A stretch of 64,000 bases of DNA from a virus. The notes beneath the pieces are model-generated. The model searched no databases. It saw only the letters and a program-made list of their open reading frames with translations, and had not been told where the DNA came from. Positions 3,641-37,765 of the stretch are shown here, in pieces (within the stretch, counting starts at the first letter, position 1; every line of letters begins with the position of its first letter). The stretch lies in IMG/VR virus record IMGVR_UViG_3300024308_000188, positions 124,001 to 188,000 of that record. One strand, written 5' to 3'. The translations under genes were made by a program, and so were the position numbers.

Positions 3641-3687
3641 GTGTGTCAAAAATAGCTATATACATGATCCTACATTTTTGCTATAAT
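3641..3687 (+). promoter_or_regulatory. composite promoter element, copy 1
   Basis: Box GTGTGTCAAAAA starts at 3641 and TATAAT is at 3682-3687, 41 bp from box start to -10 start. The -35 position (3659-3664, TATACA) is weak. The A5T of the box can pair with ATTTTT at 3673-3678. The transcript would begin near CACATTGAAACA and reads into the gene at 3727. Confidence 0.8.
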
Positions 3688-3726
3688 AGGCACATTGAAA
3701 CAGCGAAGAATCTACGAGGTATTAAA

Positions 3727-4053
3727 ATGAAAGTGTCGGTATCAAATAAAAAGTTTGTTAGAAGCTGCGGTGTAGGTTTGACAGAAGTTAAACTGCTGGA
3801 TTTTATTAAATTAGATGCAGCTTTATTGGGAAAAGATCCTTTACTAGATTCTGAAACATTCTATCAGGTTATATCTATTCAGGAGTTAAATAAAAGTTAT
3901 ATTGAAAGTTTGGATGCTTTTTGTCCACAATCTTTCGTACTCGTTCTTTTAGATAACCATGTTCGCAGAACCGCAAAAGGCTCTTTTGAAAAACTGTGTT
4001 TTTCAGTAGAAATAACTGAAGATGAACTTTACAATGTAACAGTTAAGAAGTAA
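3727..4053 (+). CDS. hypothetical protein, 108 aa
   Basis: First gene after promoter copy 1. ATG 3727 follows GAGGT by six bases; a longer frame from 3643 would overlap the promoter and is rejected. The product (MKVSVSNKKFVRSCGVGLTE...) is alpha/beta with no recognisable motif. It leads a compact operon with the genes at 4064, 4432 and 4829. Confidence 0.85.
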   Translation: MKVSVSNKKFVRSCGVGLTEVKLLDFIKLDAALLGKDPLLDSETFYQVISIQELNKSYIESLDAFCPQSFVLVLLDNHVRRTAKGSFEKLCFSVEITEDELYNVTVKK

Positions 4054-4063
4054 GGAAAAGTTT

Positions 4064-4435
4064 ATGAATGATTTAATTAAAGTAGCACCGGTTGTTGAAG
4101 GTGAGTTGATAGTTGATCCTATTGAATACTCGATTACTATTGAACAAATACAATCTTTTTTAGTCAGGACGATGAATCAACCTGTATCTACACGCATCAG
4201 ATTTTACAATGATGTTATTTTTGAAAAATATTCTTACATTCATTTTGATGAAGAAAACGGATGGCAATTCTATCACGGTCATGATGAAAAGTTTATGCCT
4301 TGGTCTTGGGTAGATGACATTGAAGAAATCTATCGTGATTGTGATATTCAAGAAATACTTGATTACAACGATGGTTGGGTATTTTACGATCTTGACGGTG
4401 GCCGTAATAAACAACTTGTGTTGGGTGATGTATGA
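4064..4435 (+). CDS. hypothetical acidic protein, 123 aa
   Basis: Starts ten bases after the previous gene, following AAGGAAAAG. The protein is acidic and rich in Trp, Tyr and Phe (for example FMPWSWVDDIEEIYRD). No motif recognised. Its stop overlaps the next start as ATGA, so it is likely produced together with the oxygenase-like protein at 4432. Confidence 0.85.
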   Translation: MNDLIKVAPVVEGELIVDPIEYSITIEQIQSFLVRTMNQPVSTRIRFYNDVIFEKYSYIHFDEENGWQFYHGHDEKFMPWSWVDDIEEIYRDCDIQEILDYNDGWVFYDLDGGRNKQLVLGDV

Positions 4436-4827
4436 TCAAAAAGTTTGTTGATAACCTGCGAAATTACTTTCGGTGGAAAGACGGCAGACAAGGAACCGGA
4501 TATAAAAAGTTTGAGATTTTAATCAGCAAGCGCTTTAATCTGGATTTTCATATTCTGCGCTATGAAGCCGGAAGCAGCATTCCATACCACTTTGATCGTG
4601 TTGGTAAGGATTACGAACACCATAGAATCAACATTGTGATTTTTCCTGCAAAAGTTGGCGGTGAATTTCGTTATGATCAATTCAATAAGTTTGGTCATAA
4701 AAACAAGGTTACACACTTCGGCCCGTTAGTTTATTTTCGACCTGATTTAATTGGACACTCTGTTTCTTACATTGAGTCTGGCACTCGTTATGTATTATCA
4801 ATTGGTTTTCTGAAAAAGGTGAAATAA
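4432..4827 (+). CDS. small 2-oxoglutarate/Fe(II) oxygenase-like protein
   Basis: The 131-aa product resembles the compact double-stranded beta-helix of prolyl-4-hydroxylase-type dioxygenases. Visible parts are HxD at H53-D55 (YHFDRV), a strand RINIVIF, GGEFRY (76-81), and a distal His H109 followed ten residues later by Arg R119 in RYVLSIGF. His-Asp-His would bind iron and the Arg would bind 2-oxoglutarate. At 131 aa it is close to a minimal catalytic core. The substrate cannot be inferred; phage members may act on proteins or on modified bases. It overlaps the acidic gene upstream by ATGA. A non-catalytic relative with the same fold is the main alternative. Confidence 0.55.
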   Translation: MIKKFVDNLRNYFRWKDGRQGTGYKKFEILISKRFNLDFHILRYEAGSSIPYHFDRVGKDYEHHRINIVIFPAKVGGEFRYDQFNKFGHKNKVTHFGPLVYFRPDLIGHSVSYIESGTRYVLSIGFLKKVK

Positions 4828-4828
4828 C

Positions 4829-5440
4829 ATGAAAGACTTAACAAACAAAATGGTTGAAGTTTCTCGTTGGTTAGCATTGCAAAGTACATTTTTATCAAGG
4901 GGTTTGCGTTCTTTGGCCGATGCTGAAAAGTTGTGGCAAGCTTTTGAAGGCAAGTATGCTGATTCAGAAGATTCCCGTGAAAAACGAATTGAGATCTTGG
5001 GTTACGATCCAATCGATTTAACAGCTGAAAAAATCTCTACTGGAAAGAAACCAACTGTAAGTACGGCAGATCGTTTATTACCAAAGACCTGCTATTTTGT
5101 CGGTGAGGATGGAGTTATTTTTTCTATTTACCCACGCGATTTTAAAACTAGCGAAGGACGTTACATTATTCGCACCAACTTTGCTGGCTACAACGGATTG
5201 ATTTACATTCAAGGAAATGAAGTAAACGCGATTGCACCTGCCGATGAAAACGGCCAAAGTTTGATCCTGAATAGTTATCAGCTGTGGACATCATTGCCAG
5301 AGTTGGCTGTTGAAATAGATTCTGACAAGACTAAATTGGATGCAAACTTTTTAGCCGAATTCGACAAAATGAAACATGCAATGTATGTTTCAATGGTTGG
5401 AAAAGAAATGGCCGATTCTATCTTTGATTTTGAGCAATAA
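4829..5440 (+). CDS. hypothetical protein, 203 aa
   Basis: Starts one base after the oxygenase-like gene ends. Helical N-terminus (about 1-60), a beta-rich middle (CYFVGEDGVIFSIYPRDF) and a helical C-terminus ending SIFDFEQ. No family recognised. It closes the operon that begins at 3727; the next composite element starts 15 bases after its stop. Confidence 0.85.
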   Translation: MKDLTNKMVEVSRWLALQSTFLSRGLRSLADAEKLWQAFEGKYADSEDSREKRIEILGYDPIDLTAEKISTGKKPTVSTADRLLPKTCYFVGEDGVIFSIYPRDFKTSEGRYIIRTNFAGYNGLIYIQGNEVNAIAPADENGQSLILNSYQLWTSLPELAVEIDSDKTKLDANFLAEFDKMKHAMYVSMVGKEMADSIFDFEQ

Positions 5441-5455
5441 CATCAACTAAACCAA

Positions 5456-5502
5456 GTGTGTCAAAAATAGGGGTGGCTTCGGCTGCCCTTTTTTGGTATA
5501 AT
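5456..5502 (+). promoter_or_regulatory. composite terminator-promoter element, copy 2
   Basis: The clearest composite copy. After the box GTGTGTCAAAAA (5456-5467), GGGTGGC (5471-5477) pairs with GCTGCCC (5482-5488, two G-T pairs) across a UUCG tetraloop and is followed by six T residues, a textbook intrinsic terminator. TATAAT at 5497-5502 begins two bases after the T-run, with GG before it. It would end the upstream operon and start the next. The initial transcript contains CAATGGTTAAGGCAA. Confidence 0.85.
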
Positions 5503-5562
5503 GTATTCAATGGTTAAGGCAAGAACCATGTCAAATCTTGCCAAACATAAGAGAATCTAGTT

Positions 5563-5970
5563 ATGTCACAAGCACGAATCAATTTGAAAAGTTTAATGCG
5601 CGTTACACTGAAAGATCGTAAAGGCACTTTCACTATACTGTCTTTTCGTTTTTCATCGAATCCAACTAAAACCATGATCACTTGCATGGCGGATTCTGAC
5701 GACGAAATTTGTCATACCACGGAAGAAAATGTCGAAAAAGTTGTTTGCTACGATATTCGCAGCAATGGCTTGCAGGAAAGTACGGTCATGAACTATCTGA
5801 CTGACGATAAACATTTTGATGTTAATGATCCTGAAGCTGACATCTACGCTGCGGTTTCAGATGCGCTAAGTGCCAAAGGTGCTAACCGAATCAAAGACGA
5901 ATTCCAGCGCCAAATAAACACACTGGACTACGATTCGATCAAAGAAAAGTTGGTAGCTCTGGCTCAGTAA
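5563..5970 (+). CDS. hypothetical protein, 135 aa
   Basis: First gene after promoter copy 2, with GAGAATCT upstream of the ATG. Basic N-terminus (MSQARINLKSLMRVTLKDRK) leading into an acidic body (ADSDDEI, DVNDPEAD). No motif recognised. A hairpin with T-run follows at 5979-6005. Confidence 0.85.
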   Translation: MSQARINLKSLMRVTLKDRKGTFTILSFRFSSNPTKTMITCMADSDDEICHTTEENVEKVVCYDIRSNGLQESTVMNYLTDDKHFDVNDPEADIYAAVSDALSAKGANRIKDEFQRQINTLDYDSIKEKLVALAQ

Positions 5971-5978
5971 AATCATTC

Positions 5979-6005
5979 GGTGGCTTTCGGGCCACCAACT
6001 TTTTG
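5979..6005 (+). terminator. hairpin with T-tract between genes
   Basis: GGTGGC (5979-5984) pairs with GCCACC (5991-5996), followed by AACTTTTT. The T-run is separated by two bases, so termination may be partial and allow read-through into the gene at 6018. Confidence 0.6.
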
Positions 6006-6017
6006 GGAGAAAAGTTT

Positions 6018-6707
6018 ATGCGTAAACTTACCACGGAAGTAGTTTTTCAAGTGCTTCATTTGCTGATGCAATCAACTAAGGCTATGCCTGAAGTTTCTTT
6101 GCAGGGAAGTCGCGTGTACATTTTCGGCAAACTTTTTGCACAATCAAATGAGGCTCGTGAAATTCTCAGACTGTGTGCAAAGCAATGTCACAGGCAAGAA
6201 CGAGCTGAACCAACTTTACCGACTGTCGCAAGTAAGTTTTTCATGGATCGTTATGAGAACGATTTTATCAAGACAGTCGTTCAAAATACAGCGACAGGTC
6301 GAATTACTGAATTTACTTTGATGGACATTACTATCGGTCTTGCGCCTGAAGCAAGTTATGATGTTTTCGATCAAACGATGGAAGCCAACGCTTTTTCTCA
6401 GTACCTGAAGTTTCATGTGACACAAGCTCATACAAAAGTTTGTTTCGCAAAGAATATCGATATGAGAATCAATCATGGTTTACCTATCGGCCTTAGCATT
6501 CACCAACTGGTCAACAAAAAAGTTGGTGTTTTTCTCAGTAACGATCTGGTCAATGTTGACGTTCTTTCTTACACAGATTTGAAAGATGTTGCTAAAACTC
6601 GTGATGGACGTAAGCAACCTTTTGCCCTCGACATACAAGTTTTGTGTGAAGGCAAAAAACTTTTCATCAAGTCAAATTTAATAAGCAGTTTAGTTGCTGA
6701 TAAATAA
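6018..6707 (+). CDS. hypothetical protein, 229 aa
   Basis: ATG 6018 follows GGGAGAA; the alternative TTG at 6003 lies inside the preceding T-tract and is less likely. The protein starts with helices (MRKLTTEVVFQVLHLLMQST) and contains beta segments later (KVGVFLSNDLVNVDVLSY). No motif recognised. Spaced 11 bases from the next gene. Confidence 0.85.
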   Translation: MRKLTTEVVFQVLHLLMQSTKAMPEVSLQGSRVYIFGKLFAQSNEAREILRLCAKQCHRQERAEPTLPTVASKFFMDRYENDFIKTVVQNTATGRITEFTLMDITIGLAPEASYDVFDQTMEANAFSQYLKFHVTQAHTKVCFAKNIDMRINHGLPIGLSIHQLVNKKVGVFLSNDLVNVDVLSYTDLKDVAKTRDGRKQPFALDIQVLCEGKKLFIKSNLISSLVADK

Positions 6708-6718
6708 CCGGAGAATCT

Positions 6719-7507
6719 ATGAAGTTATTCAAATTAGAATGTAACAAACCACAGAAAAACGGCTCAAGCTTACCTCTGCAAATTTTGTCGCTGGTGAAAC
6801 GCCTTACTCTTGGTGATGTTTATGATGTGGTAATGAACATAGAAAACATTACCAAAGACGTATCTGATTGTGAACCCGAAAACTATGTTTATCGGATCAC
6901 ACTGCTTTCAGCGCAAAACGAAATTTCTTATGTTGATGGAAATATCGACGAAGTATATTCTGCTTTAAAAGTGGTTGTTGCTGATCTTCGTAAGCTGGAA
7001 ATGAATTCCACAATTTTTGCAGACTGGATATTAAAAGGCATGGCCGCTGATATTTTATCGCACGATGCGCTTGACGATCTGGACTTGCCGGAAATTGCCA
7101 ATGAACTTTGTGAAGGTCTTGACCAGCTGGATCTGGATATTAACTTTGATGATATATCCAATCTTGTTAGTATCGAACTGGAAAAGTTTAAGGTATTTGC
7201 TTTAGCCGCGATGAAAACAAAATTCGTGTTTTTAGATGAAAACAAAATCGAAGAGTTTTCATCAGCTACCGAAATTGTTGACTTCTTTACCAAAAATAAA
7301 AATGTAGGAATGCCTGCATCCATTTACGTAACGAACGATCAATTGAATATTAAAAATTCAACAGCCGCTTTCCGTCAGATCAGTCAGATTCTTACTGATA
7401 ACTTCGGGCCGACTGCGGTAAAACGTCAGAAGAAAGTTGATAAAGCTTTTATTGTTGCATCTATTGAAGATGCGTTGGCTTCAGCCTTGAATTACGTGCG
7501 TTCTTAA
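6719..7507 (+). CDS. hypothetical protein, 262 aa
   Basis: Follows GGAGAATCT. The middle (about residues 105-160) is a leucine- and aspartate-rich helical segment (LDDLDLPEIANEL, LDQLDLDINFDDI) that could be a protein-protein interface. The C-terminus is basic then helical. No family recognised. A hairpin without a T-run follows at 7518-7537. Confidence 0.85.
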   Translation: MKLFKLECNKPQKNGSSLPLQILSLVKRLTLGDVYDVVMNIENITKDVSDCEPENYVYRITLLSAQNEISYVDGNIDEVYSALKVVVADLRKLEMNSTIFADWILKGMAADILSHDALDDLDLPEIANELCEGLDQLDLDINFDDISNLVSIELEKFKVFALAAMKTKFVFLDENKIEEFSSATEIVDFFTKNKNVGMPASIYVTNDQLNIKNSTAAFRQISQILTDNFGPTAVKRQKKVDKAFIVASIEDALASALNYVRS

Positions 7508-7517
7508 AACTAAACTG

Positions 7518-7537
7518 AGGGGAACAGAAGTTCCCCT
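7518..7537. other. intergenic perfect hairpin
   Basis: AGGGGAAC and GTTCCCCT form a perfect 8-bp stem with an AGAA loop. No T-run follows, so it may be an RNA processing or stability element rather than a terminator. Confidence 0.7.
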
Positions 7538-7558
7538 ACCGCTTGAAAGGAAAATCAA

Positions 7559-8314
7559 ATGCGACAATTATATACCGTACCAAACAAACCTGCTACTGCG
7601 GATTTATCAAGCTTAATAAAGATCATGTATGATCAACAAGCGCGGATTAGTATCTCAGGCAGTTATCTTGGTGAGTGTCTTTATGAACCTGACAGTTTAG
7701 CAACTTTAATAGTTCGTGGCACTATAAAGATTAGTGTTGAAAAAGTTTATCAGTTGTTCAACGTGACTTCACGAAAAATGTTCGTTGAAGAAAACAAGGT
7801 TATCATTATTAATAACTCTTGTCACTTACACGTTGAGCTTATTTGGGATGGTTCGTTTCCGACTATTGACGAAGAACGCATCTACAAAATAAAATGTTTG
7901 TTGAACTGTAGTAATTACAGTCCAGACCCAAGTATATCAGTATCGCCACGAGCGGCACTTGATGTACTGAAAGATGATTTAGAAAATTACATAGATCATC
8001 TGAATGAAGTTTTAGAGTTTGAAGGCAAATCTTATTCTGCACACACTCTGAAAAACTTTAACTATGATATGCGGTTTGGTCTTAATCTTTTTAGCATTCA
8101 AAAAGGATCGCGCATAACATATCTTGACCGTGGCAAGTTGAAATCTGCTACGGTTGTAAATTTCAATCCGGTAAACTTTGCACTGATTAAACAGGAAGGT
8201 ATGCCGACACGAGATCTTCATTTGATCAACATTGAGTTTAAAGAAGGCGGTTATATGTCTTACAAAACTCTTTACTTAAATCAGATTGTCGCAATAGGAG
8301 GCAATAATGAATAG
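7559..8314 (+). CDS. hypothetical protein, 251 aa, upstream of the sigma gene
   Basis: Start chosen after GAAAGGA. A beta-rich N-terminal half is followed by a helical segment (LDVLKDDLENYIDHLNEVLEF) and a small beta region (GSRITYLDRGKLKSATVVNF) resembling an SH3-like barrel strand pattern. Not recognised. Its last eight bases overlap the sigma factor gene, so the two may be translationally coupled. Confidence 0.85.
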   Translation: MRQLYTVPNKPATADLSSLIKIMYDQQARISISGSYLGECLYEPDSLATLIVRGTIKISVEKVYQLFNVTSRKMFVEENKVIIINNSCHLHVELIWDGSFPTIDEERIYKIKCLLNCSNYSPDPSISVSPRAALDVLKDDLENYIDHLNEVLEFEGKSYSAHTLKNFNYDMRFGLNLFSIQKGSRITYLDRGKLKSATVVNFNPVNFALIKQEGMPTRDLHLINIEFKEGGYMSYKTLYLNQIVAIGGNNE

Positions 8315-8987
8315 CAAACAAAAAATTATTGCGGATAATCTGGTTATGGTTAAACGCATTGCCAACAGTTTAATTGGCAAACTTTCCGCGAGTATACAGC
8401 TGGATGATTTAATCCAAGCTGGTATGCTTGGAATACTGGAGTCGATTGATCGTTATGATTCAAACTCTGGCACTTCTTTTCAAACTTTTGCTGGAATTCG
8501 AGTTTACGGTTCAATGTTAGACGAGGCCAGAAAACTAGGTTGGATTCCTAAAAATGTTTGTGCAGAAGCTCGTAAACTAAATGAAGTGCGTTCTGCATTA
8601 GAGCAGAAGTTTTTGCGCGTTCCAACAAATATTGAAGTTGCTCATGAACTGAATATTTCTATCGAAGAGTTTAATAAACTCGAACGTGAAACACACAGCA
8701 TTCATGTGTTACTTGACAGTGAACTCAATGAAAGCAACTTTGACGGTTTTTGCACTGAAGTGGATTTTGTGGATCGTCAGTGCGAGGTCACAAAGTTAGG
8801 ATCTGCTTTAAAAGTATTCGTATCAAAACTGCCAAAGCAGGAATCTATTGTAGTTAATCTTTACTATATGCGCGATCTTAACATGGAAGAGATTGGAAAT
8901 CGTATGGAACTTTGTGTGCCTCGCATAAGTAATCTTCATAAACAAGCATTGAAAAGAATGCAATTAAACATGCGTTCTTGGGTATAA
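8307..8987 (+). CDS. FliA-like (sigma28-group) RNA polymerase sigma factor
   Basis: The 226-aa product matches the FliA/WhiG group through most of its length. Region 2 is at residues 32-84 (LDDLIQAGMLGILESIDRYD, then SFQTFAGIRVYGSMLDEARKLGWIPKNV); a region 3-like helix follows (EARKLNEVRSALEQ...VPTNIEVAHELNISIEEF); region 4 is at 175-219 (LPKQESIVVNLYYMRDLN, then MEEIGNRMELCVPRISNLHKQALKRM). It should direct host RNA polymerase to phage promoters, most plausibly the middle or late set. The CTGTAAAT motifs in this window are candidates for its -10 site, but that link is inference. No anti-sigma partner is evident next to it. Confidence 0.9.
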   Translation: MNSKQKIIADNLVMVKRIANSLIGKLSASIQLDDLIQAGMLGILESIDRYDSNSGTSFQTFAGIRVYGSMLDEARKLGWIPKNVCAEARKLNEVRSALEQKFLRVPTNIEVAHELNISIEEFNKLERETHSIHVLLDSELNESNFDGFCTEVDFVDRQCEVTKLGSALKVFVSKLPKQESIVVNLYYMRDLNMEEIGNRMELCVPRISNLHKQALKRMQLNMRSWV

Positions 8988-12877: not shown

Positions 12878-12890
12878 TCAACTGATCTGA

Positions 12891-12937
12891 GTGCGTCAAA
12901 AATAGACATAGACGCACTTGGTCATTTTTGGTATAAT
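12891..12937 (+). promoter_or_regulatory. composite promoter element, copy 3
   Basis: Variant box GTGCGTCAAAAA starts at 12891 and TATAAT is at 12932-12937 (41 bp). The variant is compensated: GTGCGTC (12891-12897) pairs perfectly with GACGCAC (12911-12917), placing the box itself in a hairpin. The -35 position reads TAGACG. Extended -10 sequence TTGG precedes TATAAT. Drives the gene at 13005. Confidence 0.82.
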
Positions 12938-13004
12938 GGCATCATACAAACAAGGGAAGTGCTGTACTTTCACATGCACAAAAGTTTGTTAGGAGAAGAA
13001 GTAA

Positions 13005-15639: not shown

Positions 15640-16662
15640 ATGAAAATTGGCTTCGCTTGTAAATACATGCACCCTGACAGATCACTAAAAGCAAGTGAAC
15701 TTAAAAAGTTGGAAGAACCTTACAATATGAGAACCACAACTGTCAAGTGGTGCAAAGACAATCCTGACCTTTGGCAAGAACGTCTTTGGGAAATAATGGA
15801 ATTTAATATCAAAGCTATCTACAACATGATCGGCTATGTTAGATCGTTGCCTAAGATTGCACAAATGGTTCGTCTTAGTAGTGATGCTTTTCCTCTTTTT
15901 ACGCATCCTGATTTTTCTCATTTTTACAAACGTAAAGACGTAGAGCGTTACCTAGAAAAACATTTGGCCAATGTGCGAACTTTTGCTGGTGACGTTAGAC
16001 TTAGTTTTCATCCAGCGCAATTTTGTGTGCTTGCCAGTGAGAATCCAAATGTTGTTGAAAAGAGTATTGAAGAATTTGAGTATCATGCTTATATCGCAGA
16101 ACTTATGGGCTATGGTAGAAAGTTTCAAGATTTTAAATGCAACATTCATTTGAATGGTAAAGGTGGTGAATCTGTTTTCAGAAAAACCTACAAAAGATTA
16201 AGTGCGGCTGCCCGTAACATAATCACTGTGGAAAATGATGAATACAGTTCTGGCTTGGATGACGTTTTAGCTATAGCCGACTTGGTTCCTATTGTTCTGG
16301 ATATTCACCATCATTGGATTCATAGCGGCGGTTACATTAAACCTGATTCTAAACGTGCGTTACAAGTTATAGAAAGTTGGAGAGGCGTCAGGCCAGTTAT
16401 TCACTATGCGTATTCGCGTGAGGAATATCTGGTCAATGAAAAGTTTTCACGTAGACCTACTTTGGCAAAAATGGAGACTGATAGTAGAAAGTTGCGTGAG
16501 CACAGTGACCAATATCCAAACTGGCACTCGAATGCTTGGGCGCTAAGTTTTCTACCAAGCTTCGATATTATGTGTGAGGCGAAACATAAAAACATTGCTT
16601 CACAGCAATTAATTGATCAATACCTGAAATCTATTTCTGGAGGAAGGAATGTCAATTTATGA
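15640..16662 (+). CDS. uvdE: UV damage endonuclease, UvdE/UvsE family
   Basis: Nicks DNA immediately 5' of UV photoproducts and some other lesions, starting excision repair without UvrABC. The 340-aa TIM-barrel-type sequence shows family signatures: RLSFHPAQFCVLAS (about 119-132; metal-binding His), a Glu in ITVENDE (near 198), DIHHHWIH (about 221-228), and HYAYSREE further on. Length is normal for the family. It starts one base after the membrane-protein gene, and the following gene overlaps it by 14 bases. The enzyme is uncommon in phages and suggests exposure to light or a host with limited repair. Confidence 0.9.
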   Translation: MKIGFACKYMHPDRSLKASELKKLEEPYNMRTTTVKWCKDNPDLWQERLWEIMEFNIKAIYNMIGYVRSLPKIAQMVRLSSDAFPLFTHPDFSHFYKRKDVERYLEKHLANVRTFAGDVRLSFHPAQFCVLASENPNVVEKSIEEFEYHAYIAELMGYGRKFQDFKCNIHLNGKGGESVFRKTYKRLSAAARNIITVENDEYSSGLDDVLAIADLVPIVLDIHHHWIHSGGYIKPDSKRALQVIESWRGVRPVIHYAYSREEYLVNEKFSRRPTLAKMETDSRKLREHSDQYPNWHSNAWALSFLPSFDIMCEAKHKNIASQQLIDQYLKSISGGRNVNL

Positions 16663-16981: not shown

Positions 16982-17451
16982 TGAAAAAAGCTGGCAATAG
17001 AATTCAAATAACAGCAGAAGTTCAATCGGTAGTTCGTAGTGTTGACTCTCAATTATCTAAGGCAGTTGACAAAGGATTTATAACAGGACAACAAAAAACA
17101 TTGGCCGTTAATCTGATAGGTCGCTCTGCAAATAAAAGGACTAAGAAGAATCTTGGTATTTTACGGCCATTCAAACATGATACAACGAATAAAGAAATGA
17201 TGGGAGAACGTGATTCTGGAAAAATTGCTTTAAGCTTTCCTTTTGCCTTTGTTGATTGTTACGGAACTTTCTGGCTATGCTGTGATTCAGATACTGGTCT
17301 TTATTTAGAATGCAAGATCGATTCTAAATTTGATACTGTTTACACGCAACGCTTTTATTTAAAGGGCAATACAAAAAGTTGTATAAAGAAACTGTGCCGA
17401 TTCTTAGAATCATCGAACAACTTGGAAACTTCTCTTCGTAATCTGAACTAA
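16981..17451 (+). CDS. hypothetical protein, 156 aa
   Basis: Begins at TAATG overlapping the previous stop. Basic N-terminal 60 residues (SANKRTKKNLGILRPFKHD) and a Cys/Phe-rich C-terminal part (DCYGTFWLCCDSDTGLYLEC). No family recognised. Last gene before promoter copy 4, whose box begins five bases after the stop. Confidence 0.82.
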   Translation: MKKAGNRIQITAEVQSVVRSVDSQLSKAVDKGFITGQQKTLAVNLIGRSANKRTKKNLGILRPFKHDTTNKEMMGERDSGKIALSFPFAFVDCYGTFWLCCDSDTGLYLECKIDSKFDTVYTQRFYLKGNTKSCIKKLCRFLESSNNLETSLRNLN

Positions 17452-17456
17452 ACCAA

Positions 17457-17503
17457 GTGTGTCAAAAACAGCGGTTGTTATGAATGGCCGCTTTTGGTAT
17501 AAT
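17457..17503 (+). promoter_or_regulatory. composite promoter element, copy 4
   Basis: Box GTGTGTCAAAAA at 17457; -35 TTGTTA at 17475-17480; 17-bp spacer; TATAAT at 17498-17503 with TTTTGG before it. AGCGG (17470-17474) and CCGCT (17488-17492) form a hairpin around the -35 and spacer, followed by a short T-run. The transcript starts near CATTGGTAAGGCAA. Drives the gene at 17561. Confidence 0.88.
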
Positions 17504-17560
17504 GTCGTCATTGGTAAGGCAAGAGTGTCTACCAAATAACCCACATTTGAGGATCAAGAA

Positions 17561-20437: not shown

Positions 20438-20596
20438 ATGTGTGCTTGTTTAGGTTGTGAATCAAAACGCAAGCTCAACAAACGTCTTAAGCAAAAGCTC
20501 GTAGAGCACAAACGCTTGATGAAATTGTATGAGCGCAAGTTAATGGCTTTGGGTGTAGATCCTAAAAGCCTTGAATCAAAGAGAGAATCTAAATGA
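20438..20596 (+). CDS. small basic protein, 52 aa, N-terminal cysteine cluster
   Basis: A 52-codon frame fills the gap between 20435 and the NADAR gene and overlaps the latter as ATGA (20593-20596). The N-terminus MCACLGCESKRK has three Cys; the rest is a basic helix (KLNKRLKQKLVEHKRLMKLY). The exact stop-start overlap and the resemblance to the protein at 19631 (both carry a short leucine/lysine helix and then LGxxPPK or LGVDPK) support a real gene. The ribosome site is weak. Confidence 0.65.
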   Translation: MCACLGCESKRKLNKRLKQKLVEHKRLMKLYERKLMALGVDPKSLESKRESK

Positions 20597-21222
20597 AAGA
20601 ACCTAAGAAACTTGCAAAGAAACCTTTGGCTAAAAAGCCTTCGCTTCCATTGAAGAAGTCTTTTATTAAGTCTCAGGCCGAGCAAAAATCTGTTCCTGCT
20701 AAAGCAGAGAAAAAAGAACCTGTCACTTTAACTTACAACAGCCAGATTGAAAAGTTGGAATGGTTATCAAACTTTCAACCTTGTCTGATCGTTGTGGTTA
20801 TTGATCGTACTACTGGCGAAACATTAAAGTTTAGCAGTGTAGAACAAGGCTTCCATTACTTCAAAACTCGCAGTCCTGAATTCCGCCAAAAGATTTACAA
20901 CTGCGTCAAAGCAAAAGACGCTCGTTATCATGGCAGTGAAAAATCTGGTTGCCCTATGCGACCTGACTGGAAAGAAATTCGCAAGAGCGTGATGAAAAAT
21001 CTTCTTCTTGCAAAATACGGCCAAAACTTGATTTTGAAAAAGTGGCTTCTTGCTACTGAAGATGCTAAGTTGGTTGAACTTGCACCTTGGGACAAAGAAA
21101 AGTTTTGGGGTGTTGACGAACAAGGGAACGGATCAAACAATTCTGGTTTACTTACAGAAGAAGTTCGTGAAATTCTGGCCGATAAATCAATCACAACTGT
21201 TTATATGGATCGTTACTTATGA
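20593..21222 (+). CDS. NADAR (YbiA/DUF1768-type) domain protein with basic N-terminal tail
   Basis: NADAR proteins hydrolyse N-glycosidic bonds in ADP-ribose- and riboflavin-related compounds; some members remove ADP-ribose from guanine in DNA. The 209-aa product has a lysine/proline-rich tail (1-45) and then the family motifs: LSNF (58-61), the EQGFHYFK helix (84-91), RPDWKEIRKSVM (123-134), APWDKEKFWGV (164-174) and the glycine/asparagine-rich GNGSNNSGLL (178-187). The tail could bring it to DNA. A phage copy might counter DarT-type toxins that ADP-ribosylate phage DNA, or salvage NAD metabolites; these cannot be separated from sequence alone. Confidence 0.85.
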   Translation: MKEPKKLAKKPLAKKPSLPLKKSFIKSQAEQKSVPAKAEKKEPVTLTYNSQIEKLEWLSNFQPCLIVVVIDRTTGETLKFSSVEQGFHYFKTRSPEFRQKIYNCVKAKDARYHGSEKSGCPMRPDWKEIRKSVMKNLLLAKYGQNLILKKWLLATEDAKLVELAPWDKEKFWGVDEQGNGSNNSGLLTEEVREILADKSITTVYMDRYL

Positions 21223-22393: not shown

Positions 22394-24103
22394 ATGAAAA
22401 GTATCACAGTTCGTATTACTCACCTTATTGCTGTTGGTGAACTTTTTCAATCTCAAACAAACAAAGCTATGGCCGCTATCATCCCAAAAGATGATGCTTT
22501 GCCAACTTACAAAATTGAAACCGATGATTACAGACTGATTGAACAACTTTCTGGCGCTGTACTTTTGGTTCCTAAAAATCCGATTGATGCTGATTGCTCA
22601 AGTACAATTCAGCTGACCGAAATGGAAGTTGGTTATGGTGACTCTATCTATCCGGTTTATTCTGCGGTTACGCATGACAAAAAATCTGGAAAAACTCGTC
22701 CAATCTTTTTTATTGCGGGTATGGTTCAAACAATTTATGGTAGTTCTTTGTTCTTGCCGACTTTGACCGTACCGGCTGATGAAGTTGATATTGCGGCTTT
22801 GGTAAAAGATCCTGAAGAATCTGCAACAGGATTTGAAAAGCCACAGGCTTCATCTTTAGAGTTTATTCCAACAGACGAAGGCGCAAAAGTTGTTGCGCCT
22901 GAACCCGTTGTCGAAAACAGCGAGTCCAATGTAGAACCTGAAGAAGTTGAGTTTGATTTGATTCCAACAACTTCAGCTTTACTCGAAACTGATGCTACTC
23001 AATTGAATAAAGATGCTTTTGATGCCGCTGTTGAAAATTCAGGCTACGCGCATTTGTTTTCTTTGGATAGTTACAAAGTTTACGCGAATATTCAAAACGC
23101 TGAGTTTATCCAACAGTTAACAGAATCTTTAAGAGAAAGCGGTGATGTCAGCGCTTTCATTTATGAAGCTTTTGTTGGCCTTACAACAGACGATACAAGT
23201 TTAGTTTGGGATCAGGAATTTTGCGCCAACTATTTGGCCCCTGTTCTGTCACACTTGACCGCTTTGGCTGAAGGCCAGACGCGCGTTATTAAAGTTAGTA
23301 GTCAGTTTGATTGTACTTCGTTTGAAAGTTTTTGTGCTGCCTTACGAATCATAAAACATTTAAGTCTGCCGTTTGAATCGTCGCTTGATGCTCCAACAGT
23401 TGAAGCTTTCTTGCTTGATACAGCTTATGTAACAAACGAAGTTTTGGGCGCAATCCTAAACATTTATGTTGCGATCAATGAAGGTAAAACTACAACAGCT
23501 TGGTCTAAGCGCGGTAAAGCGTGTATTGTTTTAAGCTTGCTCGGCTTTATTGATGTGAATCCAGAAACACGATTCACAGAAGATGGTGCATTGTATGCTG
23601 TTGACCTGATCCGAACTTATTACACAACAGAAGATCAGTTTGAAGATAGCGGCTGCACTAATTTACTTCGCTATGTTCCTGAAGTTATTGACCAACTTTT
23701 CGAAGCTTTAAAAGTTCGCAAGCTGGTTGACAATCGCTGTTTATCCGAAACATCTATCGAGAAACGCGCTAAAATTGTTCGCGCTGTTTTGAATGATGTT
23801 ATTACAGTGAACGCTTTATCTTCGTGCGTACCAGACGTTTACGAAGCTTTATGTAAAGTTGAAAAACGTCTGTCTGATACTGGAGTTATTGTTGTCGGTG
23901 ATTCATGGTTAGCTCAACTCGAAGCCGCCTTACTTGCGGCTGATGATCTGGATATTGAATTCGCAGAGTATTCCACAAAGACTTTTCCGGTGGCACTGTC
24001 AGTTTGTTCAATCCTTCATCCTGAAATTGAAGTAACTTCTATTAATAGTGTTGATAGCAAAGAACAGCGCGTTAAAAATCTTATTGATGCACTGTTGACC
24101 TAA
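22394..24103 (+). CDS. hypothetical protein, 569 aa
   Basis: Follows AAAGGAAAC. An N-terminal domain (about 1-140, beta-rich) is joined by an acidic linker (residues about 150-195, PEPVVENSESNVEPEEVEFD) to a long helical C-terminal region. No family recognised. Codon use and Ala/Glu content resemble the acidic proteins at 26972 and 29814, so a related role is possible. Followed directly by promoter copy 5. Confidence 0.88.
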   Translation: MKSITVRITHLIAVGELFQSQTNKAMAAIIPKDDALPTYKIETDDYRLIEQLSGAVLLVPKNPIDADCSSTIQLTEMEVGYGDSIYPVYSAVTHDKKSGKTRPIFFIAGMVQTIYGSSLFLPTLTVPADEVDIAALVKDPEESATGFEKPQASSLEFIPTDEGAKVVAPEPVVENSESNVEPEEVEFDLIPTTSALLETDATQLNKDAFDAAVENSGYAHLFSLDSYKVYANIQNAEFIQQLTESLRESGDVSAFIYEAFVGLTTDDTSLVWDQEFCANYLAPVLSHLTALAEGQTRVIKVSSQFDCTSFESFCAALRIIKHLSLPFESSLDAPTVEAFLLDTAYVTNEVLGAILNIYVAINEGKTTTAWSKRGKACIVLSLLGFIDVNPETRFTEDGALYAVDLIRTYYTTEDQFEDSGCTNLLRYVPEVIDQLFEALKVRKLVDNRCLSETSIEKRAKIVRAVLNDVITVNALSSCVPDVYEALCKVEKRLSDTGVIVVGDSWLAQLEAALLAADDLDIEFAEYSTKTFPVALSVCSILHPEIEVTSINSVDSKEQRVKNLIDALLT

Positions 24104-24113
24104 ACTTTTCTAG

Positions 24114-24160
24114 GTGTGTCAAAAATGAGTGTTGCCTATTATAGTCTGTTTTGATATAAT
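24114..24160 (+). promoter_or_regulatory. composite promoter element, copy 5
   Basis: Box GTGTGTCAAAAA at 24114; -35 TTGCCT at 24132-24137; 17-bp spacer; TATAAT at 24155-24160. An 11-bp perfect inverted repeat (TGCCTATTATA 24133-24143 with TATAATAGGCA 24155-24165) includes the -10, so a hairpin or a symmetric protein site would overlap the core promoter. Drives the gene at 24187. Confidence 0.88.
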
Positions 24161-24186
24161 AGGCACATTCAAACAAAGGAGAAAAC

Positions 24187-24444: not shown

Positions 24445-24861
24445 ATGAAAAAAGAAATTGTTGGAATTCCGGCACTTCAAACATACGCCGAGAAGTTCTT
24501 TGCTAAAGTTCCTGATGCTGACTTTCAAACACTCAGGTTATATGCTGAAAAACGTCCGGCCTTTGCTGAGAACTTAATAACAGCTGGAAAAAGTTTGCGC
24601 TATTCATCAAAAGATTACGCAATCACTTTGACTCGCATCAGTGAAAAAGTTTATCAATTACTTTTGGATCGTATTGATTCCGAAGGTAACTCGCAAAAAG
24701 ATTTATACAGACTTACGCCATTCTATGCAATGCGTTTGTTTGCAAGTTTTGCTATGGCTTGTGTTCCACGCAAATCACGCGATCTTGAATTGGTTCTTGA
24801 TCGTCACCAAGCTAGACGAATTGATCCAAGCGTGTCAAAAACAGTGGTTGATCGACACTAA
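24445..24861 (+). CDS. hypothetical protein, 138 aa, 3' end inside a promoter
   Basis: Helical protein with basic C-terminus. Its last residues (RIDPSVSKTVVDRH) are encoded by the box and hairpin of promoter copy 6, so that element has been accommodated in coding sequence or the gene end has been captured by it. The stop lies ten bases before the -10. No family recognised. Confidence 0.8.
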   Translation: MKKEIVGIPALQTYAEKFFAKVPDADFQTLRLYAEKRPAFAENLITAGKSLRYSSKDYAITLTRISEKVYQLLLDRIDSEGNSQKDLYRLTPFYAMRLFASFAMACVPRKSRDLELVLDRHQARRIDPSVSKTVVDRH

Positions 24862-24876
24862 GCTTTTTGGTAAAAT
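24830..24876 (+). promoter_or_regulatory. composite promoter element, copy 6, within a gene end
   Basis: Variant box GCGTGTCAAAAA at 24830; -35 TTGATC at 24848-24853; 17-bp spacer; TAAAAT at 24871-24876. GTGTC (24832-24836) pairs with GACAC (24854-24858), extended by AAGC/GCTT and a T-run, so a terminator-like hairpin precedes the -10. The initial transcript has CATTGGTTAAGGCAA. Drives the gene at 24938. Confidence 0.82.
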
Positions 24877-24937
24877 ACAGTCATTGGTTAAGGCAATAAG
24901 GCCACCAGTTAAACATATTATGATGGGAATCTAGATC

Positions 24938-26030: not shown

Positions 26031-26043
26031 TCAACTGATCGAG

Positions 26044-26090
26044 GTGTGTCAAAAATAGTGGTTGTTATGAGCTACCACTTTTGATATAAT
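26044..26090 (+). promoter_or_regulatory. composite promoter element, copy 7 (tandem, upstream)
   Basis: Box GTGTGTCAAAAA at 26044; -35 TTGTTA at 26062-26067; 17-bp spacer; TATAAT at 26085-26090. AGTGGT (26057-26062) pairs with ACCACT (26074-26079), followed by TTTT. First of two near-identical copies 118 bp apart; the sequence between them has no gene. Confidence 0.88.
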
Positions 26091-26161
26091 TACACCATCG
26101 AAACAACAGAGAAAGTTTGTCTGAAGTTTCGTTCCCGATAAAAAGTTTGTTACTAAACAAA

Positions 26162-26208
26162 GTGTGTCAAAAATAGTGGTTGTTATGAGCTGCCACTTTT
26201 AGTATAAT
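26162..26208 (+). promoter_or_regulatory. composite promoter element, copy 8 (tandem, downstream)
   Basis: Box GTGTGTCAAAAA at 26162; -35 TTGTTA at 26180-26185; 17-bp spacer; TATAAT at 26203-26208. AGTGGT (26175-26180) pairs with GCCACT (26192-26197). Copies 7 and 8 share nearly the same hairpin, consistent with local duplication. A transcript from copy 7 would meet the hairpin of copy 8. Drives the gene at 26278. Confidence 0.88.
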
Positions 26209-26277
26209 GTATACATTGGTTAGGCAATAAAGCTCAGCCAAAGTAAAAAGTTTATCAATCATTTGAGGATCTCGACC

Positions 26278-32609: not shown

Positions 32610-32618
32610 TTCTTTTCA

Positions 32619-33510: not shown

Positions 33511-33535
33511 AATTCGCAATAAGAGAAATTGAAAA

Positions 33536-34003: not shown

Positions 34004-34025
34004 TAAATTTTAGTCGTTATAAAAC

Positions 34026-34050
34026 AAAAGCCGCTTCTTGCGGCTTTTTT
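34026..34050 (+). terminator. strong intrinsic terminator
   Basis: AAAAGCCGC (34026-34034), loop TTCTT, GCGGCTTTT and further T residues to 34050. It ends the H1-like gene transcript. Confidence 0.9.
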
Positions 34051-34082
34051 CGTAAAAGTTCTCTAGCGAATGGAATTGAGAA

Positions 34083-34511
34083 ATGAACACGAGTTTGGCT
34101 CATGTAACCAATAATCTGCTTCACATAAAAGATCCTGTTGAGCTTTATGCTTACATGGTTTCTTACCGCACTTCGCTTCGCCTCAACTTACTTGAGCTAG
34201 AGCAACAAAAAACTGAACAAACAAACTTAGTTGCAAAGGGAAATAGAATCCTTACTAAAAACAAGGACAATCTAGATCCAGAAGATATTGCAATTTGGGA
34301 AGGTTCAGTATCTTGCGCCAAAGCCTCTTTGGAAATTCTAAAAGTTAGTCTGATGGAAACCTCTATGGTTCTTGATGCTGTTAATGCAAATATTTCCTTG
34401 CTAGGGAAACATTATAATCTCAGCGAAGAAAAGATTTTATCTACTCAGATTGATAGCATTAACGAATATTTCCGAAAATGTTTGGGGATAACTTTAAATG
34501 CCGAGCATTAA
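34083..34511 (+). CDS. hypothetical coiled-coil protein, 142 aa
   Basis: Almost wholly helical with heptad-like leucine spacing (LRLNLLELEQQKTEQTNLVA, ASLEILKVSLMETSMVLDAV). No family recognised. Overlaps the next gene by 14 bases and precedes the topoisomerase genes. Confidence 0.83.
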   Translation: MNTSLAHVTNNLLHIKDPVELYAYMVSYRTSLRLNLLELEQQKTEQTNLVAKGNRILTKNKDNLDPEDIAIWEGSVSCAKASLEILKVSLMETSMVLDAVNANISLLGKHYNLSEEKILSTQIDSINEYFRKCLGITLNAEH

Positions 34512-34875
34512 AAAGCGCTTGACTTCTTTGCAGAATCAAGGAACTTCGTGGTTTGAAAAGTTTGAGGCTAAGGTTGATGTTTTCCGGCAAGATGTTTTCC
34601 GAGCTTTTATTTTGGATGGTTATATTTTCCTGATAACAGCTACAGGTAACTCAATCACAGCACCTATTGAAATTGTCGCCACCGTTCTTGACGAAAATTT
34701 TTCTCAGATACCAGTCAAGTTGGATTCTTCTGATCTGAAATTGGTTAATGCTTATGTAAAAGTTCTTAACCTTATTTCTTCTGGAAGATTACCAGATGCT
34801 GATCCAGATCTGACTTCAAAAATAATTCAAGTGTTGGAGTCTCGTTATTTCAATACAAATAACAATACGCCTTAA
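34498..34875 (+). CDS. hypothetical protein, 125 aa
   Basis: Starts inside the previous gene. Basic N-terminus (MPSIKKRLTSLQNQG), then alpha/beta sequence with a hydrophobic strand pair (FILDGYIFLITATGNSITAP). No motif recognised. Confidence 0.8.
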   Translation: MPSIKKRLTSLQNQGTSWFEKFEAKVDVFRQDVFRAFILDGYIFLITATGNSITAPIEIVATVLDENFSQIPVKLDSSDLKLVNAYVKVLNLISSGRLPDADPDLTSKIIQVLESRYFNTNNNTP

Positions 34876-34887
34876 GGAAAGATCCCA

Positions 34888-36870
34888 ATGGCTAAAGCAA
34901 AAGCAAAATCTGCAAATACTTATGATGAAGATAGTATTCAGGTTCACAAAGGTTTAGCTGGTGTTAGATTAAACGCTGGCATGTACATGGGTGAGCTTGG
35001 CGATTCAATGATGTATCGCATGGGCAAAGAAGCTGTTGAAAACAGCCGCGATGAATACGAAGCTGGACGCAACAACGCAATCTATGTAGCCTTTAATAAC
35101 AAAACAAGTGAATACGTTTTTGCCGACTGCGCTCAAGGTATTCCTGTTGGAATGAAAACAGTTGAAGGTAAAAAAGTAAGCGCATTAACAGTAATTCTTA
35201 CTGAACTTCATGCTGGCGGAAAATTTGATGTAAAAGCTTATCAGACTTCAGGTGGTACGCACGGTGTTGGTATTTCTGCGGTCAATGCTTTATCAAAAGA
35301 ACTTGAGGTCTGGACTTGTCGTGAAGATCAGTGGTACTACCAAAGTTTTTCATGCGGAAAAGAAACCAGTCCTGTTAAAAAGGTTCCAGACACTTTCCTC
35401 AAGAAAAAGTTTGGTTATCTTTTGCCGCTCAAGAAAAAGTTTAAGCGACTTGGCACTATCATTCGCTTGGTTCCAGATCAAAGCGTGATAAGCGTTGATG
35501 CTAGTCGTACCTCAAAACTTAAAACATATACCCAAGCTGTTTTGGAAGAACAAAAGTTTGCTGATTATTTAAAGTTCATGAGTACCATGAATAGCAAGCT
35601 TTATATCGGTTTCCTAAACCTTGAAACAAACAAAGAACAGGTTTTCTACAATGATAAAGGTTTGGGTGCTGTAGTCAGTTCAATAATTTCTGATCATGAT
35701 TTAGAGCCTTTGGGTAAGCCATTCGAGTTCGATGGCTCAAGCCTGAAAGTTGCTATTCAATGGTCTAATCACTATGACAGTGATCTGTTCAGAAGTTATG
35801 TAAATAGTAGTCCAACAATAGATCATGGTACGCATGTAAATGGTTTCCGTGCGGCCATGTCAAAAGCTTTGAAAAACTATCTGCCCAAAAAAGCAGGTAA
35901 GTTTAAGCCAGAAGATCTTTATGTTGGCGCAGTTGCTATTATCAACTGGAAAATGAACAGCGCTCAATTTAGTGGTCAGGTAAAAGATAAACTGGTATCT
36001 AAAATCGATAACGAAGTTTGTGATTTACTGACTCAACCATTAACCGATTTTTTTGCAAAGAACAAAACATTAGCCAAGCAGATTATAAAACGCGCAAGTG
36101 ATGTTGCGGCTTCCCGTGAAGATCTTGCTAAAACAATGAAAGGCATGAGCGAAGTTAAAAAAGGTGGAAGTAAGCTGCCGATAAAACTTTATGAAGCTCC
36201 AGATTGTAAACCGCATGAGCGTGAGCTGTATTTTGTCGAAGGCGATTCGGCTGGCGGTACTGCCAAAAATGCTCGTGGCTTTAATCAGGAAGTTTTAAAA
36301 CTTGGCGGTAAAATTCCAAACGCATTGAATGTTAGTCTAAGTGCCTTACTTTCAAATGACCGCATTCAAGATATGCTGAACAGTTTGGGAGTTGACATAA
36401 AAAGTTTGGATGTTAAAGCTGATAATCCTACATTCAGTACAAAGAATCTGCGAGTTGCTGTTGCAATGTTGCTTGCTGATGCTGATGCTGATGGATCTCA
36501 CATTAACGTACTTATCACCGCATTTTTCTATAAACTTATGCCCGACTTTATTAAAGAAGGTCGTTTGTTTGTTGTTGACGCTCAATTGTACAACGCACTC
36601 GTTAATGGTGTGCATTACAGCGGAAACACAATGGAAGAGTGTTTAGCTAAGTTACCAAAAAATGCTCCGAAGGGAAGTGTGTTCCGTGCAAAAGGTTGGG
36701 GAGAGACAGATGCAGATTTACTTGAAGCCATAGCATTTGATATTAACAACAGAAAGTTGATTCAAATTGAATATGGCAAAGTTCAAGAAGATCTTGCGTT
36801 TTACAGATCAGTTGTAGGTGAAGATGCCTCTGCCAGACGGCAATTGTTGGGGTTAAGTTCCAACGATTAA
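34888..36870 (+). CDS. type IIA DNA topoisomerase, ATPase subunit (GyrB/ParE/T4 gp39-like)
   Basis: The 660-aa subunit binds ATP and, with the subunit at 37806, passes one duplex through another. GHKL ATPase motifs: EAVENSRDE with the Mg-binding Asn at 52, and GGTHGVGIS (122-130) for the ATP lid. The TOPRIM domain has EGDSAGG (about 451-457) and DADADGSH (about 530-538), the metal-binding acidic residues. Good ribosome site (AAGGAAAG). Length matches the shorter GyrB/ParE type. Phages use such enzymes to relieve supercoils during replication or to resolve progeny DNA. Whether it supercoils (gyrase) or only relaxes and decatenates cannot be told from the sequence. Confidence 0.95.
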   Translation: MAKAKAKSANTYDEDSIQVHKGLAGVRLNAGMYMGELGDSMMYRMGKEAVENSRDEYEAGRNNAIYVAFNNKTSEYVFADCAQGIPVGMKTVEGKKVSALTVILTELHAGGKFDVKAYQTSGGTHGVGISAVNALSKELEVWTCREDQWYYQSFSCGKETSPVKKVPDTFLKKKFGYLLPLKKKFKRLGTIIRLVPDQSVISVDASRTSKLKTYTQAVLEEQKFADYLKFMSTMNSKLYIGFLNLETNKEQVFYNDKGLGAVVSSIISDHDLEPLGKPFEFDGSSLKVAIQWSNHYDSDLFRSYVNSSPTIDHGTHVNGFRAAMSKALKNYLPKKAGKFKPEDLYVGAVAIINWKMNSAQFSGQVKDKLVSKIDNEVCDLLTQPLTDFFAKNKTLAKQIIKRASDVAASREDLAKTMKGMSEVKKGGSKLPIKLYEAPDCKPHERELYFVEGDSAGGTAKNARGFNQEVLKLGGKIPNALNVSLSALLSNDRIQDMLNSLGVDIKSLDVKADNPTFSTKNLRVAVAMLLADADADGSHINVLITAFFYKLMPDFIKEGRLFVVDAQLYNALVNGVHYSGNTMEECLAKLPKNAPKGSVFRAKGWGETDADLLEAIAFDINNRKLIQIEYGKVQEDLAFYRSVVGEDASARRQLLGLSSND

Positions 36871-36882
36871 GAGGATCGTGAA

Positions 36883-37272
36883 ATGGGACAACGCTACTAT
36901 GCTCTAATGGACTTAAGCTTTATTCCAATAAAGATGAATCCAGATCACATGCGAAATAATAGTTTGACTGTGTTTTGGGTTCGACTTTCATTTATCAACA
37001 CAAAGATTAAACGGGCCGCTTTGATTGTACTTAGTAATGATGGTACAATCGTAAAAAGTGTTTGGCCCACAAAATCGAAAACAATATCTTCAGTTATATT
37101 GAATGTGTTTGAGAGAACTTCTCTTGATGGTGACGATTGGAATTGGGACGAGCTTTTAAAAATAAGTCTGGCGCGAAAGCGTATGATTCAGTATTATGGA
37201 TCAAGAGAGTCTTATCGCAGACGTATTGCTTTGCTTCCAGTTACGCAAAATAGTTTGCATAATATTTGTTGA
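36883..37272 (+). CDS. hypothetical protein, 129 aa, between the topoisomerase subunits
   Basis: Basic protein with an alpha/beta start (MGQRYYALMDLSFIPIKMNP) and a core strand AALIVLSNDGTIVKSVWP. It weakly resembles the next protein (ALAIVDANGFFIKRPP), so the two may be divergent duplicates. Function unknown. Confidence 0.82.
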   Translation: MGQRYYALMDLSFIPIKMNPDHMRNNSLTVFWVRLSFINTKIKRAALIVLSNDGTIVKSVWPTKSKTISSVILNVFERTSLDGDDWNWDELLKISLARKRMIQYYGSRESYRRRIALLPVTQNSLHNIC

Positions 37273-37281
37273 GGAAATTGC

Positions 37282-37707
37282 ATGATTAAAAAACAAATTG
37301 TATTCATGTATATGGCTCAAGGTGTAGTCGAAGAAAGTTGTCGATGGATAAAAGCTGAACTTGAAGTCAACGACAATCCTAAAAAATTGTTGGAAACTCG
37401 ATTGCAGTGTATGGCCTTAGCTATTGTGGATGCGAACGGATTTTTCATAAAACGCCCTCCACAAAATATTATTGGTAGCGTTTCCCGTGTTTACACTACA
37501 GGTCTTTATTGGTTGGGTAAGAATAGTAAATTCCTGACAGACACGTTGCTTAATGAATTGAGTGAAAAGAAAACTCTTTCAACATTAGGACTGGACTCTG
37601 TGAGAGCATATGTTTCTTATTTGAGTTCAAATAATCCGTATGATCAAGTTCAATTCACTTCATTCCTGAAAGAAGTGTTACCTAAAGGAACACCATCTTT
37701 AGTATGA
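37282..37707 (+). CDS. hypothetical protein, 141 aa, between the topoisomerase subunits
   Basis: Follows TGAGGAAATT. Helical with a central strand segment (CMALAIVDANGFFIKRPPQN) similar to that in the previous gene. No family recognised. Promoter copy 9 begins ten bases after its stop. Confidence 0.82.
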   Translation: MIKKQIVFMYMAQGVVEESCRWIKAELEVNDNPKKLLETRLQCMALAIVDANGFFIKRPPQNIIGSVSRVYTTGLYWLGKNSKFLTDTLLNELSEKKTLSTLGLDSVRAYVSYLSSNNPYDQVQFTSFLKEVLPKGTPSLV

Positions 37708-37717
37708 ACTGATCCAA

Positions 37718-37765
37718 GTGTGTCAAAAATCAGGGGTTTATTTCAATACCTTATTTTGGTATAAT
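37718..37765 (+). promoter_or_regulatory. composite promoter element, copy 9
   Basis: Box GTGTGTCAAAAA at 37718 and TATAAT at 37760-37765, 42 bp apart, the only copy one base longer. The hairpin is weak and the -35 position (TTTATT) is poor, but TTTTGG precedes the -10 as in other copies. Drives the topoisomerase A gene at 37806. Confidence 0.8.

Follow-up and report, generated by a model that had tools for sequence, protein, structure and literature searches.

Background

Promoter-early stem-loop (PeSL) cassettes have reportedly been described in T4-type phages by Arbiol et al. 2010 and Comeau et al. 2014. They consist of a sigma-70-type promoter and a stem-loop terminator, are present in many copies in the variable early regions, and gene modules are gained or lost between copies (PMC4503421). 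The T4 early promoters are 'uber' UP/-35/TGn/-10 promoters with additional conserved regions (PMC2988021).

The stretch analysed here, referred to as the window, is 64,000 nt long and represents positions 124001-188000 of a 214,526-bp virus record (G000), the source of which is an uncultivated jumbo phage. Judged by its sequence, the repeated element in the window is likely to be a promoter/terminator cassette with a box acting at the DNA level, punctuating what is probably an early gene region. As in the PeSL cassettes, a sigma-70-like early promoter and a stem-loop are united in one intergenic unit, with the stem absent or weak in some copies, and modules have been gained or lost between cassettes. 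The differences are that the terminase of the carrier was closest to the Erwinia Y3/Dickeya JA11 type, with no T4-type phage among the listed matches; that the hairpin is embedded between the UP site and the -10, overlapping the -35; and that an extra upstream box is present, which persists without the hairpin. The terminator function of the hairpins described here is a prediction.

An A-tract UP site, a TG-extended TATAAT and additional conserved upstream positions are shared with T4 early promoters, but the sequence at -64 to -45 is a GTGTGTC/AACTGATC box and not A/T-rich. The TTTAC-like -35 found in copies of one relative (G001) resembles the T4 early hexamer. Promoters of class I/II activators (e.g. 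CRP) also have a specific, helically fixed site 5′ of the -35 beside the alpha-CTD position, whereas the present site is non-palindromic and centred near -54.5, not -41.5 or -61.5. A hairpin inside a phage early promoter is likewise known from the N4 vRNAP promoters; in contrast, the architecture here is of the TATAAT/sigma-70 kind, RNA polymerase beta gave no match and the hairpin is dispensable. The cassette kind, a promoter-terminator, is already known, and the upstream box is new.

Source record and relatives

The terminase of G000 matched phrog_17415. The best tblastn matches of this protein were Erwinia phage Y3, Dickeya JA11/JA13 and other jumbo phages, with approximately 40% identity, and no T4-type phage was among the matches listed. 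Gene blocks in G000 were long and co-directional, with approximately 94-95% of the sequence coding. The relatives were G002 (319,518 bp, terminase 99% identical to that of G000), G001 (286,584 bp, 63% identical) and G004 (80,834 bp). When they were searched for the box, as suggested in the first-pass annotation, copies were found in all of them: 13 in G002, in one cluster at 147-183 kb and a second at 266-300 kb; 12 distinct copies and a further one, at the contig end, in G001; and four in G004, which holds counterparts of the second cluster of G002. The region of this second cluster appears to be missing from the G000 contig. Across G000 and the relatives, 38 cassette copies were examined; the consensus alignment contained 25 non-redundant copies.

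Genes for a UvdE-type UV endonuclease (15640-16662) and a NADAR domain protein (20593-21222) were located within the cassette region of the window, and a thymidylate kinase gene (2154-2867) just upstream of it.

The nine cassettes

The first-pass annotation had listed nine copies of a box beginning 41 bp before TATAAT in eight cases and 42 bp in one (37718). All nine coordinates were exact and on a single strand, and the distances from box start to -10 start were as given. TATAAT was the -10 in eight copies; at 24830, the -10 is TAAAAT. The cassettes of the window are:

3630..3694, + strand: cassette 1, with AACTGATC (-64), GTGTGTC at 3641, -35 TATACA, TGC TATAAT, CA and putative +1 at 3694; no stable hairpin, upstream gene (3347-3649, minus strand) divergent
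5445..5509, + strand: cassette 2, with box at 5456, TGG TATAAT, terminator-like hairpin at 5469-5490 and putative +1 at 5509
12880..12944, + strand: cassette 3, with box GTGCGTC at 12891, -35 TAGACG, TGG TATAAT and hairpin GAC..GTC
17446..17510, + strand: cassette 4, with box at 17457, -35 TTGTTA, TGG TATAAT and hairpin at 17470-17492; contains the stop codon of the upstream gene (17449-17451)
24103..24167, + strand: cassette 5, with box at 24114, -35 TTGCCT, TGA TATAAT and a modest hairpin; the hairpin of its positional ortholog, G001:96810, is very strong
24819..24883, + strand: cassette 6, with box GCGTGTC at 24830, -35 TTGATC and TGG TAAAAT; the upstream ORF ends within it, at 24861
26033..26097, + strand: cassette 7, with box at 26044, -35 TTGTTA, TGA TATAAT and hairpin AGTGGT..ACCACT
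26151..26215, + strand: cassette 8, with box at 26162 and -35 TTGTTA, 118 bp after cassette 7 across a gene-less interval; stem sequence nearly identical to that of cassette 7
37707..37772, + strand: cassette 9, with box at 37718, 42-bp spacing and -35 TTTATT at 17 bp; precedes a topoisomerase II subunit gene (37806-39449)

TTGTTA, previously noted as a -35 element at 17457, 26044 and 26162, was located 17 bp from the -10 in each of them. Most cassettes sit directly after gene ends and before gene starts, with the preceding gene usually stopping shortly before, or inside, the cassette.

When the search was extended to the entire 214-kb record, only these nine boxes were found within one mismatch, none on the opposite strand. 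The exact 12-mer occurred 7 times on the plus strand and 0 times on the minus strand, with approximately 0.009 per strand expected from base composition; for the 12-mer plus TATAAT the expectation was approximately 8e-6. A profile of the element scored 64-88 at the eight 41-bp window copies, compared with at most -7 in shuffled sequence.

Promoter architecture

Across the 38 copies, the layout was AACTGATC-N3-GTGTGTCAA, A-tract, -35, TG-extended TATAAT and CA at -1/+1, with positions numbered relative to the inferred +1. The conserved cassette is approximately 65 bp long, conservation reaching AACTGATC upstream and the CA downstream. In the 25-copy alignment, A A C T (G) A T C at -64 to -57 is followed by three free bases, then by GTGTGTC at -53 to -47 and AAAAA at -46 to -42, which is where the box had been estimated to lie (-53 to -42). 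Further downstream are a -35 (-35 to -30) with an invariant T and a 17-bp spacer, TTTT at -18 to -15, the TG-extended TATAAT, and a C at -1 and an A at +1, each in 22/25 independent copies. Because the variants GTGTGTCAATATT, GTGTGTCAAGAAC and GTGTGTCAAAAGC occur in G001, the core of the box was set as GTGTGTCAA; the remaining A-tract positions vary slightly among these variants.

By sequence, every cassette copy is a predicted σ70-type promoter, in agreement with the earlier placement of the box 5′ of a -35/-10 pair. The -35 hexamers are mediocre, with weak examples in several copies, and in the cassette region generic promoter scans gave no excess over shuffles. At threshold, the box profile and the promoter profile picked out nearly identical sets of sites, and scanning G000 gave no comparable TATAAT promoter without a box.

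UP elements are A/T-rich alpha-CTD sites at about -38 to -59, and class II activator sites centre near -41.5, overlap the -35 and are usually accompanied by a degenerate -35. The first-pass annotation had assigned the box to a place where either may sit. The UP part held for the A-tract, which at -46 to -42 occupies the proximal (alpha-CTD) position, but GTGTGTC at -53 to -47 is not A/T-rich. The class II part was not supported: the midpoint of the conserved 20-bp module (-64 to -45) is close to -54.5, and the copies retain a -35 at 17 bp.

The box could also function without a dedicated protein, as part of an extended sigma-70/alpha-CTD promoter like those of T4 early genes. The cassettes do have T4-like early-promoter features (UP A-tract, -35, TGn, -10, 17-bp spacing and a purine at the putative start), the A-tract is exactly at the proximal UP site, and T4 early promoters carry additional consensus regions of unknown role (PMC2988021). 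However, GTGTGTC and AACTGATC contain G/C and are near-invariant, unlike A/T-rich UP sequences, and the conserved blocks reach -64 with a fixed 3-nt gap; this explanation is possible, though on the doubtful side. An operator for a repressor that shuts the early genes off later would similarly be sequence-specific and common to one promoter class only, but the region from -64 to -45 does not overlap the -35 or -10, and rigid spacing is more typical of an activator, making an operator unlikely. We lean slightly towards a dedicated protein reader of the box.

Terminator-like hairpin

Overlooked in the first-pass annotation was a terminator-like hairpin fused into the cassette. In many copies, the sequence of 20-odd bases that separates the A-tract from the -10 overlaps the -35 and folds into a hairpin with T4-5 after it, for example AGGGGTGGC-TTCG-GCTGCCCT at 5456 and AGCGGT..GGCCGCT at 17457. 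Stem sequences differ among copies, with each 5′ arm fitting its own 3′ arm: native arms had a mean of -6.0 kcal/mol versus -3.8 kcal/mol for swapped arms (permutation p=5e-5), and own-arm pairing was also significant for the stem interior without the A/T tracts. The predicted structure resembles an intrinsic terminator and shares sequence with the -35 of the promoter that follows. In approximately 1/3 of the co-directional copies the hairpin was weaker than -4 kcal/mol, and a standard terminator scan flagged 2/9 window copies (5456 and 17457); therefore, termination is uncertain for many copies. Where the upstream gene is divergent (3641, G002:299879 and G001:107423), hairpin energies were 0 to -2.6 kcal/mol, meaning a weak hairpin or none, and the box was kept (one-sided p=0.011 for the hairpin, with n=3, two of which are near-identical orthologs).

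These observations bear on whether the box acts in RNA, helping to form the 3′ end of the upstream transcript as a terminator enhancer or a processing site. In many copies it immediately precedes the terminator-like A-tract/hairpin, which would suit such a role. Against it, the box is intact without a stable hairpin at G001 81830, 95927 and 266918, and is kept at 3641, G002 299879 and G001 107423, where the upstream gene is divergent and no upstream transcript is expected. A role in RNA is thus very unlikely.

Conservation of box and hairpin

Six cassettes have positional orthologs in G001, with flanking proteins of 23-73% amino acid identity. At these sites, identity between G000 and G001 was 93% for GTGTGTCAA, 88% for AACTGATC, 88% for TGn/-10 and 83% for the T4 tract, and 42% for the hairpin and 34% for the upstream flank. 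Five ortholog pairs had a box-to--10 spacing of 41/41; the sixth, 37718 and G001:81830 at the topoisomerase gene (the latter without a hairpin), had 42/42, so that the rigid spacing noted in the window was kept at all six sites despite divergence. Since the -35/-10 spacer stays 17 in the 42-bp pair, the extra base lies between the box and the -35. The box and its spacing are conserved while the hairpin has diverged and is dispensable, indicating that the box belongs to the promoter and not to the terminator; it is independent of the hairpin.

Module shuffling

Cassette 107423 of G001 has the same upstream neighbour as 3641, and its downstream gene is a homolog (31%) of that following 5456, from a family with a second G001 member; G001 has no counterparts of the four genes that lie from 3641 to 5456. 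Also missing in G001 are the two genes between 24830 and 26044; a gene-less interval of 170 bp separates two cassettes there. Cassette 17457 is missing in G001, as are the two genes on either side of it. Cassettes thus mark the start or end of several gene-content differences, as reported for PeSL cassettes in T4-type phages (PMC4503421); other differences between G000 and G001 are not cassette-bounded.

Differences bounded by, or carrying, cassettes would also be seen if the conserved sequence were mere homology for cassette recombination with no regulatory role. However, conservation is confined to the box, -10, T-tract and CA, whereas the hairpin among them is free to diverge. Gene conversion would be expected to make the hairpins uniform as well; the spacing is kept and the hairpin sequence is not. 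We regard mere recombination homology as extremely unlikely.

Occurrence elsewhere

IMG/VR scans with the AACTGATC/AACTAATC module and with a box-TTTTG-TATAAT pattern detected the full element only in G000 and its relatives. In Erwinia Y3 and Dickeya JA13, 3-mismatch matches were at or below the reversed-pattern control. One bacterial chromosome carried a full element:

L125:3267-3324, - strand: single chromosomal copy, Rheinheimera texasensis DSM 17496, NZ_JONU01000008.1

This copy has the 41-bp spacing, TGT TATAAT and CA, and lies upstream of an AAA-ATPase gene in a stretch of 33-43% GC with DUF2787, DUF6641, UvrD-like and AAA-ATPase genes. Its neighbour gene is divergent and there is no T-tract hairpin. 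By a rough estimate, the bare pattern might occur by chance a few times per hundred such scans; homology is likely because there are additional matches beyond the bare pattern. The element was absent from 21 other Rheinheimera genomes and 394 others of the order.

With one copy in R. texasensis and none in its relatives, a host regulon was rejected. A site for a host regulator of host promoters, copied by the phage, would account for the full copy in the R. texasensis island upstream of the AAA ATPase gene, but a regulon would recur, and the copy is single there, with 0/21 in congeners and 0/394 in other genomes of the order; such an origin is decidedly unlikely. Among AAA-ATPase homologs, the best upstream similarities were at chance level, and sharing of the box by them was discarded. 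GTGTCAAAAACAG plus a hairpin in L138, before an integrase-like ORF, was not considered homologous.

Candidate readers of the box

Two sigma-70-family factors are encoded by the source record:

window 8307-8987, + strand: sigma-70-family factor (regions 2, 3, 4), 226-aa ORF, no match in G001
G000:116987-117172: second sigma-70-family factor, 347-aa open frame

Since the factor at 8307-8987 is matchless in G001, which keeps the cassettes, it is not required for the box and was rejected as the reader. No match to a phage RNA polymerase beta subunit was found, and a phage multisubunit RNA polymerase was dismissed on this ground. The reverse complement of the invariant core, TTGACACAC, is a perfect -35, but a reversed sigma-70 promoter was rejected for want of a conserved -10 downstream, a weak TATCGT being present at 26052 only. 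Marbox, Fis, sigma-54 and CRP consensus sequences did not fit by eye, the Rfam search returned tRNA only, and no candidate protein reader was found. The phage-encoded activator or modified polymerase put forward in the first-pass annotation is a possible reader of the box.

Proposed mechanism

We infer transcription, its start site, termination and the protein reader in the following form. Host sigma-70 RNA polymerase would bind the UP-like A-tract (-46 to -42), the position of which we take to be the proximal UP subsite of established sigma-70 biology, together with the -35 (TTGnnn/TTTACn, 17-bp spacer) and the TG-extended TATAAT, and would initiate 7 nt past the -10, on the A of the conserved CA. 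AACTGATC-N3-GTGTGTCAA (-64 to -45), with its two conserved blocks approximately one helical turn apart and adjoining the A-tract, would serve as a non-palindromic sequence-specific promoter element. It is most likely bound by a DNA-binding protein (host-encoded, injected or early phage-encoded) contacting alpha-CTD, which would explain the rigid spacing; the mediocre quality of the -35 is consistent with a need for upstream help. In many copies, transcription of the preceding gene would be ended by the hairpin and U-tract encoded between the A-tract and the -10. Judging only from promoter type and gene content, the cassettes probably mark early genes.

A more specific version is speculative and rather unlikely. 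In it, the 20-bp module would be the site for a dedicated novel activator (encoded by the host, or a phage protein that is virion-injected or immediate-early) docking beside alpha-CTD, the cassettes would form a private early-promoter class of this lineage, and the Rheinheimera island would have acquired the promoter, possibly for an infection-triggered AAA-ATPase.

Leader hairpins, a small RNA and other motifs

Hairpins starting at the putative +1 were observed at 5456, 17457, 24830 and 26162 and at G001 95927 and 107423, with a recurring AGGCAA stretch. Examples are ATTGGT..GGC(AATA)GCC..ACCAAT at 24830 and ATGGTT-AAGGCAAG-AACCAT at 5456. The arms match within copies (p=1e-4). Ideas for their role include 5′-end protection and a put-like RNA. 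The interval between cassettes 7 and 8 contains:

26097..26201, + strand: candidate small RNA of approximately 100 nt, from the putative +1 of cassette 7 to the T-tract of cassette 8, with no convincing ORF

This interval has a predicted structure, and a gene-less tandem pair also precedes the orthologous gene in G001 (~96044-95890, minus strand).

A second over-represented intergenic motif, AAACTGTAAAT(C/A), was found at 36 places in G000 (e.g. window 50233, 54376 and 55025), often with GTA approximately 6 bases later, and may be a middle/late promoter read by a phage sigma. A third motif, in which TAATTTA precedes a GTAAG-like sequence, occurred in intergenic regions of G000 and G001 (e.g. 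G000 38791 and 173951, G001 191766 and 213301) and is perhaps another phage promoter class. An order-3 Markov model predicts 21.8 occurrences of the 9-mer AAAAGTTTG in G002, where 103 were counted, at coding as well as antisense positions; this 9-mer was frequent also in G000, G001 and G004. In G001, the topoisomerase II genes (78133-87812, L105/L106) gave matches to intein splicing domains carrying HNH motifs. An ORF on the opposite strand, encoding a TnsA-like domain, interrupts the large subunit, the downstream half of which begins with the C-terminal part of an intein; this layout suggests a split intein.

Implications

The cassettes extend the promoter-terminator principle from T4-type phages to an unrelated jumbo lineage, and their presence in unrelated lineages suggests convergent or widespread use for module shuffling. 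For a jumbo phage group without isolates, they offer a compact and testable model of host takeover, comprising one promoter class with predicted start sites, a box of strict geometry, and terminators fused to promoters. The box would be usable as bait for an activator, and the copies that naturally lack a hairpin or have the 42-bp spacing already provide controls.
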